DNA of 64,000 nucleotides from positions 2,632,001 to 2,696,000 of the forward strand of contig NZ_CP133265.1 of NCBI RefSeq assembly GCF_030915505.1, in the 5' to 3' direction. Below the pieces are notes generated by a model. The model ran no database searches, was not told where the DNA came from, and saw only the letters and a list, made by a program, of their open reading frames with translations. Shown one piece after another: positions 6,101 through 49,683 of this stretch (position 1 is its first letter; each line of letters starts with the position of its first letter). Made by a program: the position numbers and the translations under genes. The DNA comes from Neobacillus sp. OS1-2. GTDB lineage: Bacteria > Bacillota > Bacilli > Bacillales > Cytobacillaceae.

Positions 6101-6356
6101 TTTGGCCCTATTACAAAACCTATCCTTTAAACCAGGGTTCATTGTGTTGGATGAATTTGACAGCGCCTTGGATGAAAACCGTAAATTAAAGGTGTTTGAC
6201 TTATATGTACAAGAATTAAATAGAAAGTTGATCATCCTTACGCCAAAATCGCACGAAGAACATTACCTAAAGCGCTTCGGAAAGGCATTGGTTGTTCAAC
6301 ATGACCCGACCATTCCTTCTAGTAAAATAGTAGGGATTGTGAAGAAAGATTCGTAG
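3150..6356 (+). CDS. jetC: Wadjet JetC, SMC/MukB-like ATPase
   Basis: A 1068-aa SMC-family ATPase, the DNA loop-extruding motor of Wadjet. Walker A is GPNGSGKS at residues 32-39, the ABC signature VSGGEESLSSLL is near residue 971, and Walker B FIVLDEFDSALDE is near residues 998-1010. Two long coiled coils (roughly 170-480 and 630-900) flank a hinge-like region. The head halves at each end and the very long heptad-rich arms are diagnostic. It is the last gene of the operon and is followed by a strong hairpin terminator. Known Wadjet systems act against circular plasmids; that function is inferred here, but the complete gene set makes it likely. Confidence 0.88.
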   Translation: MIPWRMTFSGIRDYRPEQIDLSGIDQHIMITGPNGSGKSTITYCMGAVLYSSKVDVEGLKSRNLLPDQTWKAQISIVFKNNGKMKIDAATFIQFTLRMVQEPGQPIKKEYSISTGEEMDQWEQTIKYSSGDRQFNFSAYKKDLLYKYKIDPDAYYLIWYQQEVNQFAVMNPEERFRIFSEMHGIDQTQREWEESIEKLKETTETLKTAKFSVDNKRLELQIKKADLDRFTSNQERLQRGAREYTESLLLLETALKKELNSLEGIMVELSADMEEAKEAISLKQEEKEKLIEQMNKLLIEKEELEGKLEKAEDLLETVNDEIQAKKQSIALLEKELEDLTKRKNQITRTEKEVQEELDRLVKAIGDTSNQLDEVKGEHKQLDQSRSHLLMEIAKLDHQVEEDERLFGEHSKRLAEYKSSHDVSMTISKLDEDINAFKNEKLKVSNELHELKIEQASLLENRDLSKRQSDSLAFLRMRNIKAYPLRELVELDEQAQLKDEGLFNAIKYTIFFHGKHIDPPNDLYHVPLMETVPDRSVDALPELHLKIKDGMKDEDIPHALKALWWVGQFFKNGPFKIVNGSLHDPMGIRGPQEKERYLLSKKALLARRKEVERLIAKNESRLLQLNELIGSHTKKSQELNRIIQYVREAEAFMATDYARQSRIKRLEEENKRLVDIQTLLGELDGKRTSLHVHLLQLQDKQGILKEEEAFYEELGKMKGKYDHLLKLQSQFTALKDQYDEQVTILEGLEDDQNKLESKMKKRKRIEEQLVEEIESSNTVLKRVSNQLSAKQEEKDVTAQQLVEYIKEVTEIKELVPQVYSDIASEPIPDVIPSVTNLKNQRENGKIMFDAARREPGIDPAAPENYEAVKFEFERLDNEYKRTNILLDQDRQRAEELKDKLETTINMRVTEIRRRFQSYMSHFQFEGEVDWDSSEDKRGRTHFKLFIKARKEGHRGTMEDVSTKARGGRVGKGVSGGEESLSSLLFALALLQNLSFKPGFIVLDEFDSALDENRKLKVFDLYVQELNRKLIILTPKSHEEHYLKRFGKALVVQHDPTIPSSKIVGIVKKDS

Positions 6357-6373
6357 TACGGCTCAACTGAGAT

Positions 6374-6423
6374 GCTGCCCCCAGCGTGTGAAAGCTTTTA
6401 CATGCTGGGAGCAGCACCTTTTT
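6374..6423 (+). terminator. terminator of the jet operon
   Basis: Inverted repeat GCTGC..CCAGC / GCTGG..GCAGC followed by a T5 run, just 18 bp after the jetC stop. Confidence 0.8.
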
Positions 6424-45316: not shown

Positions 45317-45829
45317 ATGGAATCCGGCAATATTATTCGTAAAGCATCAGAATCCGATACCATGGCTATTCTAGAAATCTACAATCAGGGGATTGAAGAT
45401 AGAATCGCTACACTTGAGGAAGAAACAAAGGATTATTCCTATATGAAGGAATGGTTTGAAAGGCATCAAGGTCGATATAATATCTTAGTGGCGGAACAGG
45501 ACGGAATCATTGCAGGATGGGCATCTTTAAATCCATACAGTAACCGCTGTGCGTATGACGGGGTCGCGGATCTTTCCATCTACATTTCAAGGAACCATAG
45601 AGGGAAAGGTTTGGGGAAGCAGCTTCTTGCTGAAATTGAATCCCTTGCATCAGCCAACGGTTTCCATAAAATAGTTCTCTTCACATTCCCCTTCAATCGA
45701 TTAGGGCAGGGATTGTACCGGAAAATGGGATACCGCGAAGTAGGCGTATTTCGAAACCAAGGGAAGCTAGACGGTGAATTTGTAGATGTCATGGCAATGG
45801 AAAAATTATTGTTAAGTAACACTTATTAA
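45317..45829 (+). CDS. ArsN1-like GNAT acetyltransferase
   Basis: A 170-aa GNAT enzyme close to arsinothricin/phosphinothricin acetyltransferases: IYNQGIEDRIATLEEE near the N-terminus, WASLNPYSNRCAYDGVADLS and the acetyl-CoA loop NHRGKGLGKQLL. Together with the arsenic genes that follow, this points to ArsN1, which acetylates the antibiotic arsinothricin. GGGGGG precedes the ATG. It has its own terminator, so it is a separate unit of the island. Confidence 0.75.
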   Translation: MESGNIIRKASESDTMAILEIYNQGIEDRIATLEEETKDYSYMKEWFERHQGRYNILVAEQDGIIAGWASLNPYSNRCAYDGVADLSIYISRNHRGKGLGKQLLAEIESLASANGFHKIVLFTFPFNRLGQGLYRKMGYREVGVFRNQGKLDGEFVDVMAMEKLLLSNTY

Positions 45830-45978: not shown

Positions 45979-46002
45979 ATAAGTAATTGGTTATATGCTT
46001 AT
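45979..46002. promoter_or_regulatory. candidate ArsR operator
   Basis: ATAAG-n14-CTTAT inverted repeat in the arsR leader, within an AT-rich promoter region. Confidence 0.45.
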
Positions 46003-46030
46003 GTCTGTAAAAGGAATCGGGGGTACATGT

Positions 46031-46378
46031 ATGGAGAAAACGTTGATAGAAATCGAACAAATATCAGCAGTTCTGAAATTGCTTGGGGACAAAACAAGAA
46101 TGACTATTATCGCCATTTTAAAATTACGTGAGTGCTGCGTGTGTGAAATGCAAGAAGTATTTGACATGAGTCAGCCTTCCATCAGCCAGCACCTACGAAA
46201 ATTAAAAGATGCAGGACTGGTAAAGGAAACCAAAAAGGGACAGTGGGTGTATTACTCCCTTAATCAGCAAAATCCTGTTTTCGCAATGATAGATCAAATT
46301 TTAGAATATGCGCCGGAACAAACAGAAAAAATTAGACAAATAGAAAAAAGTAATCCAACGCTTCGTTGCGGTTGCTAA
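46031..46378 (+). CDS. arsR: arsenite-responsive repressor ArsR
   Basis: A 115-aa ArsR repressor. The As(III)-binding cysteines are in [11 protein letters not shown] (about 36-41), in the recognition region; the HTH continues as [16 protein letters not shown]. The C-terminus ends in LRCGC, adding possible thiolates. As(III) binding releases it from the ars promoter. The start at 46031 is preferred over the frame start at 45995 because conserved sequence begins there. First gene of the arsR-acr3-arsC run. Confidence 0.92.
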
Positions 46379-46391
46379 GGGGAGTAGAAAA

Positions 46392-47450
46392 GTGAGTACA
46401 AAAACAGAAAAGAAACGCCTTTCATTTTTAGACCGGTACTTAACACTATGGATCTTTTTGGCGATGGCAGTAGGAATCGGATTAGGATTCGTCTTTCCCA
46501 GCTTTATAGATAGTATGAACAAATTGCAGGTTGGAACAACATCCATTCCACTTGCCATTGGCTTAATATTAATGATGTATCCCCCATTAGCCAAAGTTAG
46601 ATATGAGGAGATTGGGCGAGTATTTAAAGACGTAAAAGTGTTAGCATTATCACTGGTACAAAACTGGATTATTGGACCAATTCTTATGTTTTTATTAGCA
46701 ATCATTTTTTTACCAGATAAACCAGAGTATATGGTTGGTCTAATCATGATTGGTTTAGCTCGCTGCATTGCGATGGTTATTGTATGGAACGATCTTGCCA
46801 AAGGTGATACGGAATATGCGGCAGGATTAGTAGCCTTCAATGCCATTTTTCAAGTAATATTCTTTTCAGTGTATGCTTACGTGTTTGTAACCATCATACC
46901 AGGATGGTTCGGAATCCATGGGGCAATCGTCAATATTACAATGGTGGAGGTTGCTAAATCTGTTTTCATCTATCTAGGTATACCATTTATTGCTGGAATG
47001 ATAACACGCTTTATAATGGTAAAAGCAAAAGGCAGACAATGGTATGAGAAAGTATTTGTTCCTAAAATAAGCCCGATAACGTTAATTGCCTTACTATTTA
47101 CAATCATCTTCATGTTCTCTTTAAAAGGAAACATGATTGTAAGTTTACCACTGGATGTCGTTCGTGTAGCCATTCCATTATTGGTATACTTTATACTTAT
47201 GTTCTTCGTTTCCTTTTTCATGGGAAGAAAAATTGGAGCAGGCTACGCCGTCACCACAACACTTTCTTTTACAGCTGGAAGTAATAACTTCGAGTTAGCC
47301 ATTGCTGTTGCTGTTGGTGTATTTGGGATTCATTCTGGTGCAGCCTTTGCAGCGGTAATAGGACCACTTGTAGAGGTGCCAGTAATGATTGGATTGGTTA
47401 ATGTAGCATTTTGGTTAAGACGAAAATACTTCAAAGAAAATGCAGCTTAA
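46392..47450 (+). CDS. acr3: arsenite efflux permease Acr3
   Basis: A 352-aa ten-helix membrane protein of the ACR3 family (also annotated ArsB in bacilli). Seen: [20 protein letters not shown] at the start, [16 protein letters not shown] with the conserved Cys, and [16 protein letters not shown] near the end. It exports As(III) using the proton gradient. It lies 14 bp after arsR with GGGGAG upstream. Confidence 0.95.
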
Positions 47451-47471: not shown

Positions 47472-47895
47472 ATGGAAAACAAAAAGAAAATTTACTTCTT
47501 GTGTACAGGGAACTCTTGCCGTAGCCAAATAGCGGAAGGATGGGCAAAACAATATTTAGGTGATAAATGGGAAGTAAGAAGCGCAGGTATTGAAACACAT
47601 GGTTTGAATCCCAATGCGGTAAAAGCGATGAAAGAAGCTGGAATTGATATTTCAAACCATACATTCTGATCTTATCGAACCTGAATATTTAAACAGCTCT
47701 GATTTAGTGGTAACATTATGCGGGGACGCAGATGACAAATGCCCGGTTACACCGCCAAGTGTAAAACGAGTACATTGGGGATTCGATGATCCTGCAAAAG
47801 CTCAAGGAACAGACGAAGAAAAATGGGCATTTTTCCAACGTGTTCGTGATGATATCGGAAATCGTATTAAGCATTTTGCAAAAACTGGAGTGTAA
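47472..47895 (+). pseudogene. arsC: arsenate reductase arsC with a one-base frameshift
   Basis: A thioredoxin-type ArsC broken by one extra T at about 47664-47665. The first frame carries the active site [15 protein letters not shown] and runs to a stop at 47667-47669. After the shift the second frame has [17 protein letters not shown] and [10 protein letters not shown]. Deleting one T gives SNHTSDLIEPE and a normal protein of about 140 aa with all catalytic cysteines. Either a recent mutation or a sequencing error. Confidence 0.9.
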
Positions 47896-47926: not shown

Positions 47927-47952
47927 CTATAAATTTCAATTATAGAAGGAAA

Positions 47953-48237
47953 TTGAACCTGATAATCACTGACACAGCTCGTGATGAGTTCAAAAAAATG
48001 TTCGAAAAAGAAAATGCTAAGAACATTCGAATCTTCTTTGATGGCTTTGGCTGAGGACAGCCAAGAATTGGACTGGCTCTGGATGAGCCGGAAGCAGATG
48101 ATATAGTTGACACCATCAACGGCATATTAGTAGCAATCGATCCAAAAATTATAGCAAATACCGAAGATTTGATTTTTGACCGCAGTGGCAAGGGATCAGG
48201 AATTTCGATGATCGGGAATACAGGAAGATGTTGTTAA
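47953..48237 (+). CDS. HesB/IscA-like protein with in-frame TGA, probable selenoprotein
   Basis: A 94-residue frame if TGA at 48052-48054 is read through. Upstream: TDTARDEFKKMFEKENAKNI and RIFFDGFG. TGA follows, then GQPRIGLALDEPEADD and a tail ending SMIGNTGRCC. The HesB-like family has Cys (or selenocysteine) exactly here, in GFG-C-GGP. A 7-bp stem (48073-48079 with 48085-48091) with loop TGGAT lies 18 nt downstream of TGA, within bacterial SECIS distance rules. The start is TTG 47953 (AGAAGGA just upstream) or ATG 47902, which is in frame. Selenoprotein status depends on selABCD elsewhere; otherwise it is a pseudogene. Confidence 0.75.
48055..48091 (+). promoter_or_regulatory. candidate SECIS element
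   Basis: Stem CTGGCTC / GAGCCGG (one T-G pair) with apical loop TGGAT, having G as second base, 25 nt between TGA and the loop. This fits the known bacterial pattern of a small stem-loop with a G at the loop start. Confidence 0.65.
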
Positions 48238-48261
48238 AAAAGACCATACTGGTCTTTTTTC
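48236..48261. terminator. bidirectional terminator
   Basis: AAAAAGACCA-tac-TGGTCTTTTTT stem with A and T runs on both sides. It separates the HesB-like gene from the convergent 69-aa gene. Confidence 0.85.
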
Positions 48262-48469
48262 ATTTATTCAATTTATCTCTTAGCTCATGGTATGCTTCTT
48301 TAAATCGTTGATAGGTTTGTGAACCGTATTCCTCGTTGTTCTGATGAAAAAATAGCTCCATCGTAATCTCTTTTGCTTGCTCAATCGTACAATTTCGCGA
48401 AATTTTTATGAGGTTTAAATAGGATAAAAAATATTCCTTCTTCAATACACCTGCATGATTAACGGTCAT
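48260..48469 (-). CDS. small hypothetical protein
   Basis: A 69-aa charged helical protein (VLKKEYFLSYLNLIKISRNC at the start; a later QTYQRFKEAYHELRDKL). It is preceded by an excellent GGAGGTG at 3-5 nt from the ATG, so it is a real gene. It lies 64 bp downstream of the arsI gene on the same strand and probably belongs to its transcript. The family is not recognised. Confidence 0.65.
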   Translation of the reverse strand: MTVNHAGVLKKEYFLSYLNLIKISRNCTIEQAKEITMELFFHQNNEEYGSQTYQRFKEAYHELRDKLNK

Positions 48470-48532: not shown

Positions 48533-49012
48533 TTAACAGCAGCTAGCTGTATTCTTGTCTTGAGCATCCGTAGAACAACACTCCACCTTATCTGTCTTCG
48601 GTTCTGTCCAGCAACAAGCAGAATCATTTGAATTGATCTCTTCCATATTTGCCTTTGTGTAAAAGAACTCCCACTCGTTTCCATCGGGATCGTTAACCCA
48701 AAACTTATCTTGGAGAGCATAACAACATGTTGTATTAATTTCTTCGAGTTGAGGCTCAATCCCGACTTCTAAAAGTCTATTTTTATGAGCCATAACCTCT
48801 GCTGAACTTTCTACTTGAATGCCAAAGTGTCCAACTTGATTTCCGCTTACTTCGTCTTGAAGATTAAGCGTAAAGTTTAATCCCGGTGATTCAAGCAGGT
48901 ACTTTGCATAACCTGGCTTTATTTTTACTGGATCAGCTCCAAATAATTTGCTATAAAACTCGATCGATTTCTCCAGGTTTGTTACGTTAAGACCAACATG
49001 TGCATATTTCAT
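48533..49012 (-). CDS. arsI: ArsI-type C-As lyase (VOC family)
   Basis: A 159-aa VOC dioxygenase of the ArsI/CadI class, which cleaves the carbon-arsenic bond of trivalent organoarsenicals. Seen: HVGLNVTNLEKSIEFYSKLF at the start (first His ligand), GHFGIQVES (second His), the adjacent cysteines TTCCYALQDKFWVNDPDG that bind As(III), and EWEFFYT (Glu ligand). The C-terminal tail adds three more cysteine pairs (SACCW, VECCS, ASCC). AGGAGG lies upstream of the ATG. Controlled, by context, by the MarR gene 190 bp upstream. Confidence 0.9.
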   Translation of the reverse strand: MKYAHVGLNVTNLEKSIEFYSKLFGADPVKIKPGYAKYLLESPGLNFTLNLQDEVSGNQVGHFGIQVESSAEVMAHKNRLLEVGIEPQLEEINTTCCYALQDKFWVNDPDGNEWEFFYTKANMEEINSNDSACCWTEPKTDKVECCSTDAQDKNTASCC

Positions 49013-49201: not shown

Positions 49202-49648
49202 TCAAAGTAATGATTTACAACAAACAGTTGATTTGGACATGGCGTCATTTAAAAGTTGGATCGATTTAATCACCATATCTCGTTCAAACTCACTCATATT
49301 CGAAAATACTTCGTCGAGATATTGTTTCATATCTGCGTCAATCTTTGCAGCAACATAATTGCCTTGCGTAGTTAGGGATAATTGGTATACACGTCTGTCT
49401 TCAGGAAGTGGCGACTTTTTAACCAGTTCCATCTTTACTAGCGTTTGAACTTGCCGGCTAAAAGTGGTTATATCCATCCCCAGAGTATCGGCAACTTGTT
49501 GCATTGAAGGTCTGTTGTAGCGAAGGATTTCATAAAGAATATGGCTCTGTACAAGGGATATATCCTCTCCTCCAATTCGACAGCAATTTTTATTTAAAAG
49601 TCCGAATCGTCTTGTCATGATTTGAAACAACTCTCGAACATCTTCCAT
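49202..49648 (-). CDS. MarR-family regulator with cysteine pairs
   Basis: A 148-aa MarR-type winged-helix regulator (YEILRYNRPSMQQVADTLGM, then DITTFSRQVQTLVKM and the wing DRRVYQLSL). It carries two vicinal cysteine pairs (LNKNCCRI and TVCCKSLL at the end), unusual for MarR and suitable for As(III) binding. The start at 49648 is set by AGAGGTG. It lies directly upstream of arsI on the same strand, and both promoters share the same 13-bp motif. It is probably an arsenical sensor of the island. Confidence 0.8.
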   Translation of the reverse strand: MEDVRELFQIMTRRFGLLNKNCCRIGGEDISLVQSHILYEILRYNRPSMQQVADTLGMDITTFSRQVQTLVKMELVKKSPLPEDRRVYQLSLTTQGNYVAAKIDADMKQYLDEVFSNMSEFERDMVIKSIQLLNDAMSKSTVCCKSLL

Positions 49649-49683
49649 AATTTTCACCTCTGATTTATTTATATACTAATTAA

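Follow-up and report, generated by a model that had tools for sequence, protein, structure and literature searches.

A predicted selenocysteine-containing HesB-like protein encoded beside arsenic resistance genes in Neobacillus sp. OS1-2

The window analyzed here, a stretch of 64,000 nucleotides of the genome of Neobacillus sp. OS1-2 (contig NZ_CP133265.1, positions 2,632,001 to 2,696,000), contains a hesB-like gene (47953..48237, plus strand) with an in-frame TGA codon that is predicted, from its conservation and context, to be read as selenocysteine. In our reading, to which we assign a probability of about 55%, the product is a selenocysteine-containing HesB-like protein that would be made from an arsR-acr3-arsC operon and would carry a selenol/thiol site for trivalent arsenic; judging from the gene neighborhood, such a protein is likely to help the cell handle arsenic. 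If this is the case, selenocysteine joins the ordinary arsenic resistance operons of bacilli.

The hesB-like frame extends from a TTG codon at 47953 to the TAA stop at 48235-48237 and, with the TGA read through, encodes 94 residues. As described in an earlier note made from the letters of this DNA, it is a frame of the HesB/IscA type with one in-frame TGA, the predicted selenocysteine codon (48052-48054, plus strand), which is the only TGA within it; the residues around this codon are GFG-U-GQP, and the C-terminus of the protein is GRCC. The OS1-2 gene has no ATG start, and the candidate starts are CTG 47959, at the place where most relatives have ATG (TTG in loci L042, L057, L058, L060, and L061), and TTG 47953. 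A possible ribosome site, AGAAGG (47944-47949, plus strand), lies 5' of the gene.

Selenocysteine is predicted in the protein because the TGA and the hairpin-forming stretch are retained in dozens of relatives. Matches to the gene were detected in 32 of 60 genomes (that of OS1-2 included), and in 28 of the 60 a match holds exactly one TGA, the genomes with a match but no one-TGA match being G025, G041, G043, and G052; all 28 one-TGA genomes fall among the 50 of the 60 in which SelB scores above the cut-off. A profile search of an order-wide draw of 249 genomes yielded 134 places in 111 genomes, comprising 73 places with one TGA, 60 free of stops, and one with TAA. A full-length SelA match was found in all 62 genomes of the order that have a TGA place, in 6 of the 49 that have only other copies, and in 116 of the 249 overall (Fisher p ~1e-24 for TGA place versus SelA, kinship not being corrected for). 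The non-TGA homologues that were aligned carry Cys at the site, mostly as GCCG. Thus, the alignment proposed in the earlier note produced TGA or Cys at this position, with a stem that covaries where TGA is present, and the gene displays what is expected of a bacterial selenoprotein, a conserved in-frame TGA at a functional position that alternates with Cys among homologues. A pseudogene created by a nonsense TGA was rejected for the family, given the one-TGA matches in 28 of the 60 genomes and the link to SelA across the order.

The OS1-2 genome, a single contig of 4.73 Mb, contains selA, selB, selD, and a tRNA-Sec gene, all the genes by which the selenoprotein reading was to be checked. SelA was detected with 473.6 bits and SelB with 349.5 bits (cut-off 242.25); the tRNA-Sec, with a TCA anticodon, was called by ARAGORN at L074:523-618 and matches RF01852 with 59.9 bits; RF01852 matches again at C1:4192067 (47.1 bits), where ARAGORN made no call. 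The selD gene, named from its motif, lies near selA (L002:4936-5988) and itself contains a TGA in frame (AG-U-GCKIGPEDL). A SelW-like frame (L002, ~6130-6380), also named from its motif (CMQ-U), lies beside it. Judging by these motifs, the two are likely to be further selenoprotein genes. A search of L002 against Rfam yielded no family at the gathering level.

The hairpin 3' of the TGA is a SECIS-like stem-loop (48073..48091, plus strand), assigned from covariation and geometry, that consists of the arm CTGGCTC (48073-48079), the loop TGGAT (48080-48084), and the arm GAGCCGG (48085-48091); its geometry is exactly as first described, with 18 nt separating it from the TGA, a 7-bp stem, and a 5-nt loop with G as the second base. 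The signal that exceeds chance is the conservation of the stem, not the OS1-2 stem by itself: a stem of at least 7 bp appeared in the same zone in 13.8% of 20,000 synonymous recodings, so an argument from the single-sequence stem was rejected as being within chance. Across 43 distinct TGA sequences, the stem is paired in 98.3% of cells, and 6 of the 7 pairs are changed on both sides somewhere. There are 15 cells changed on both sides compared with 1.1 in shuffles, and none of 500 shuffles reached this count; as related sequences are not independent, this control does not amount to a probability. When the stem partners were slid by 1-3 columns, only 17-45% of cells paired, and L059, L093, and L095 retain the pairing even though their stems and the encoded residues differ to a large extent. 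Among TGA relatives, the best stem has this 18/7/5 geometry in 37 of 46 (OS1-2, which also has it, is not counted), compared with none of 12 Cys relatives. We therefore regard the element, a stem-loop located shortly 3' of the TGA and kept by covariation, as a SECIS candidate which, along with the Sec genes and the TGA or Cys at the site, supports the notion of a probable selenoprotein put forward in the earlier note. A second helix, guessed 3' of the stem, failed (15.5% of cells paired).

With the Sec genes present in OS1-2, the TGA copies confined to genomes with SelA (62/62), a stem that covaries in the TGA copies and is absent from the 12 Cys copies, and Cys at the site in homologues, it is very improbable that the TGA is decoded as tryptophan or by leaky readthrough instead of as selenocysteine, although six metagenome entries (P0002-P0007) do show Trp at this position, probably as a product of gene calling with a table in which TGA encodes Trp. 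One protein among these, P0003 from JGI (on a 910-bp contig), was already labeled “HesB-like selenoprotein” by its source, so automatic pipelines sometimes detect the selenoprotein.

The hesB-like gene is preceded, on the same strand, by an arsN1-type N-acetyltransferase gene of family A (45317..45829; NF040503, 218.9 bits, cut-off 170), the arsR regulator gene (45995..46378; NF033788, 99.1 bits, cut-off 55; also PF01022), the acr3 arsenite efflux gene (46392..47450; TIGR00832, 466.4 bits, cut-off 282.8), and arsC of the pI258 type (47472..47895), from which it is separated by 57 bp. Directly 3' of the hesB stop is an intrinsic-terminator-like hairpin of 11 bp followed by a T tract (48236..48260, plus strand); given this hairpin and the short gap after arsC, hesB probably ends the transcription unit, and we infer that it would be co-transcribed with the ars genes and induced by arsenite through ArsR. 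On the minus strand are a small conserved ORF of 69 residues (48260..48469), which matches no NCBIfam or Pfam family, is situated between hesB and arsI, and was found again in a cluster of 7 among 35 loci, then the convergent arsI gene of the ArsI/CadI family (48533..49012; NF041414, 169.5 bits, cut-off 116), and a MarR-type regulator gene beside it (49202..49657; PF01047, 39.3 bits, cut-off 24.6), to which similar genes occupy the matching place in several relatives.

The arsC gene named in the earlier note is present but frameshifted, in two ORF pieces that meet near 47664-47669. Both pieces align with a single intact ArsC, that of the relative L047, at 94% and 88% identity; the second, being only a piece, scores 110.8 bits against TIGR02691, below the cut-off of 174.3. 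The only strong aconitase match in OS1-2 likewise falls into two neighboring open pieces (L002:9459-12180, that is, G000:C1:4443527-4446170; 737 and 730 bits), so that indel errors are plausible in this assembly. A programmed frameshift in arsC found no support; given the intact arsC in relatives and the split aconitase, a recent lesion or, perhaps, an assembly error would account for the frameshift more simply.

The OS1-2 copy of hesB has 10 residues that occur in none of 17 close relatives (each of which has 0-6 private residues), some of these at otherwise invariant sites, and it forms the longest branch of its subclade, having evolved faster than its relatives. Combined with the missing ATG and the frameshifted arsC, these features would fit decay, whereby the family encodes a selenoprotein but the ars operon is losing its function in this strain and the gene possibly is no longer made. 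We consider decay improbable: the dN/dS of OS1-2 hesB versus L039 is ~0.17, far from neutral; the frame, the TGA, the stem, and the terminator are intact; the arsC pieces remain close to their counterpart in L047; and the splitting of aconitase points to assembly indel errors as a plausible source of the arsC lesion. Relaxed selection may nonetheless act on this copy.

The arsenic setting noticed at this locus extends through the host genus, where 20 of the 24 TGA copies (OS1-2 included) are located within 6 kb of ArsC, Acr3, ArsB, ArsA, or ArsD; these 20 are on the same strand as, and ~16-115 bp 3' of, arsC, arsA, or a dual-specificity phosphatase gene. The exceptions, L045, L048, L049, and L061, lack ars genes, but L061 retains the phosphatase gene and part of a gene for thioredoxin reductase. 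L048 and L049, TGA copies of one close subgroup, are found among rhodanese-like genes. Among 15 further loci tested, ArsC, Acr3, or ArsB is nearby in 14, with L079 as the exception. The location on the same strand, close 3' of ars genes, is thus a repeated one, as expected for a component of ars operons.

Plasmids carry the gene as well, with 17 matching records; no match was found among phage records. Of the five Cytobacillus plasmid copies, the one opened is a TGA copy 3' of arsR-arsB-arsC-arsD-arsA-trxB-phosphatase, and seven plasmid Cys copies, from Priestia (two), B. arachidis, Planococcus, Peribacillus, Paenibacillus, and Alicyclobacillus, all lie in rows of ars genes. The PLSDB gene table, which describes itself as incomplete, shows no feature for any of the five Cytobacillus copies, and the plasmid Cys copies opened are annotated as adhesin or iron-sulfur cluster biosynthesis family protein. 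The name adhesin, often given to Cys versions and found in the RefSeq records of L098, L170, L172, L173, and L174, is likely to be a misnomer.

Adjacency to ars genes does not run throughout the TGA family. In the order, HesB is found within 8 kb of ArsD in 50 of 87 ArsD places, and 18 of the 73 TGA places and 31 of the 60 stop-free places are within this distance of ArsD; of the remaining 55 TGA places, 46 were inspected, and ars genes are present at three of these, OS1-2, L179, and L192. A phylum-wide draw produced matches in 51 of 398 genomes, and among the 40 places opened, ars efflux or reductase genes are present at two, L131 (TGA) and L133 (Cys), both from the order of the host, with a lone ArsR-family hit at three, some contigs ending close to the gene. 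Outside the Bacillales-side genomes of this draw, none of 36 TGA copies is near ars genes, lone ArsR-family hits aside. In a tree of 92 rows (built from few columns, with some long branches, from a sampling that favored the host genus and plasmids, and leaving out the order-wide copies without ars genes found later), 59 rows split from 33 rows without ars genes with support of 100/98; the 59-row side includes 36 Sec and 11 Cys copies with ars genes, and 11 Sec copies and 1 Cys copy without them. A general ars link of selenocysteine-containing HesB was rejected, as the clostridial copies seen, and most of those seen in other families of the order, are free of ars genes. Given this limited distribution in the phylum, the order, and the tree, the ars role seems to have been acquired within Bacillales and not to be the original task of the family.

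The same distribution leaves room for an incidental neighborhood, in which a general redox or sulfur protein merely travels with ars genes: the four ars-less copies in the genus (two of which sit among rhodanese-like genes) and most of the copies opened in other families would be accounted for in this way. The repeated adjacency, on chromosomes and plasmids, to operons of the acr3, arsB, and arsDA types, together with the shared strand and short gaps, argues against this explanation, which we consider rather unlikely.

The OS1-2 protein falls short of the thresholds of three family models, scoring 44.8 bits against TIGR01911 with Cys written for Sec (cut-off 66.35), 43.5 bits against NF038090 (cut-off 85), and 15.2 bits against PF01521 (gathering score 26.3). 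A structure model built from 39 aligned sequences, again with Cys in place of Sec, has a mean pLDDT of 89.7, with low confidence in the C-terminal tail (~61 for the final residues). From its match to E. coli IscA (1s98; TM 0.74, E 5.4e-6), an IscA-like fold is predicted; a profile search of solved structures by sequence yielded four chains, HI1723, AQ_1857, and two YfhF/IscA chains. Canonical A-type proteins have a C-terminal Cys motif. The OS1-2 protein shares the predicted fold with IscA/SufA/ErpA (PF01521) but has Sec in place of the first Cys and ends in CC instead of the canonical motif; likewise, it departs at the C-terminal ligands from the separate canonical A-type protein encoded in the OS1-2 genome (L076; TIGR00049, 129.5 bits). 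A site with three ligands is not universal, since some TGA relatives (L055 and L056) have only one Cys at the end of the chain.

The proposed arsenic role builds on what is directly seen, namely the Sec codon at the first ligand position, the terminal CC, the adjacency to ars genes, and the change between Sec and Cys in step with SelA of the host. The TGA would be read as selenocysteine by means of the OS1-2 selA, selB, selD, and tRNA-Sec; the protein would be made from the arsR-acr3-arsC operon upon induction by arsenite through ArsR; Sec34 and the C-terminal Cys93-Cys94, from one subunit or across a dimer, would bind the As(III) produced by ArsC; and the bound As(III) would be either buffered or handed on for efflux. 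In hosts without Sec genes, the vicinal Cys pair (GCCG) would replace Sec. ArsD is a small cysteine-based As(III) carrier that occurs beside ArsA; the role proposed for HesB is similar, and HesB of the order is often encoded in one operon with ArsD, but the two proteins are not homologous by any search made. A broader and distinctly tentative extension is that a Bacillales branch of the IscA/HesB fold was recruited as an arsenite-binding selenochaperone in which Sec and the terminal Cys residues might take ArsC-made As(III) to Acr3 or ArsA-ArsB, the residue switching from Sec to a vicinal Cys pair, or back, when an ars operon passes between a host that has the selenocysteine machinery and one that lacks it. 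The occurrence of Sec and Cys forms at one place in the operon, across hosts that differ in the Sec trait, offers a natural test of the benefit of selenium in metalloid handling.

Given the predicted IscA-like fold and the many ars-less copies, Fe-S or general redox work remain strong rivals to arsenite binding. Specifically, the same selenoprotein could serve as a carrier of the A type, restoring or shielding Fe-S clusters that arsenite damages, and Sec would then be a ligand of the cluster: the predicted fold is that of IscA, the nearest named families are Fe-S carriers, and the TGA copies without ars genes, common in the order, fit a general Fe-S role. The absence of the canonical C-terminal Cys motif, with terminal CC or C in its stead, and the presence in OS1-2 of a separate protein of the canonical type make this alternative, on the whole, somewhat unlikely. 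We prefer an As(III) site over Fe-S repair because the chain departs from L076 in the ligand region and because the Cys forms use a vicinal pair.

HesB-like selenoproteins, the family to which the earlier note assigned the protein, are indeed found as a known family in published lists of selenoproteins (PMC13188914, PMC9312934, PMC5029168), but the OS1-2 protein remains below the cut-offs of both selenocysteine-HesB models. The members of that family (TIGR01911, HesB_rel_seleno; NF038090, IscA_HesB_Se) are likewise small IscA/HesB-type proteins whose genes carry an in-frame TGA where the first ligand is encoded. The motif listed for TIGR01911 is UxGP (PMC13188914), whereas OS1-2 has UGQP; UGGP is found in some relatives, for example, L054-L057. 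The 33 rows from which the OS1-2 side is split in the tree (100/98) are mostly clostridial, and none of them is ars-linked, unlike the OS1-2 protein in its genus.

The association with ars genes, which the earlier note took to be new, is so in part. HesB-like genes in ars operons have been published: orf7 in the ars1 operon of Bacillus sp. CDB3, arsRYCDAT-orf7-orf8 (PMC4562236, PMC5481582), and hesB in Exiguobacterium ars operons (PMC8779447). Compared by description, these resemble the OS1-2 gene as HesB-type members of ars operons; the passages that describe them state no residue at the site and do not mention selenocysteine, whereas the OS1-2 gene has the TGA and the covarying stem. A selenocysteine form in an ars operon was not found in the literature covered, most subscription papers being outside this coverage. 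Arsenic-related selenoproteins that have been listed include the arsenite methyltransferase ArsM and an ArsC-like protein, along with the SAO system (PMC13188914). As in the proposed role, selenocysteine serves there to deal with arsenic or metals, and Sec may act as a metal ligand, but the proteins belong to families other than HesB, and the relevant passages of that source name no ars-operon HesB.

A lax-threshold search of the 44-52 kb region of the window against Rfam produced six matches, all below threshold; one of these, a CsrB match overlapping the hesB-like gene (15.6 bits versus a gathering score of 71), was taken as chance. In L040, L041, L043, L046, and L057, an ORF of ~63-71 residues with a Cys-rich end, which for the one tested had no Pfam match, is located near hesB and arsI, and a similar ORF is present in L054-L056 and L064.
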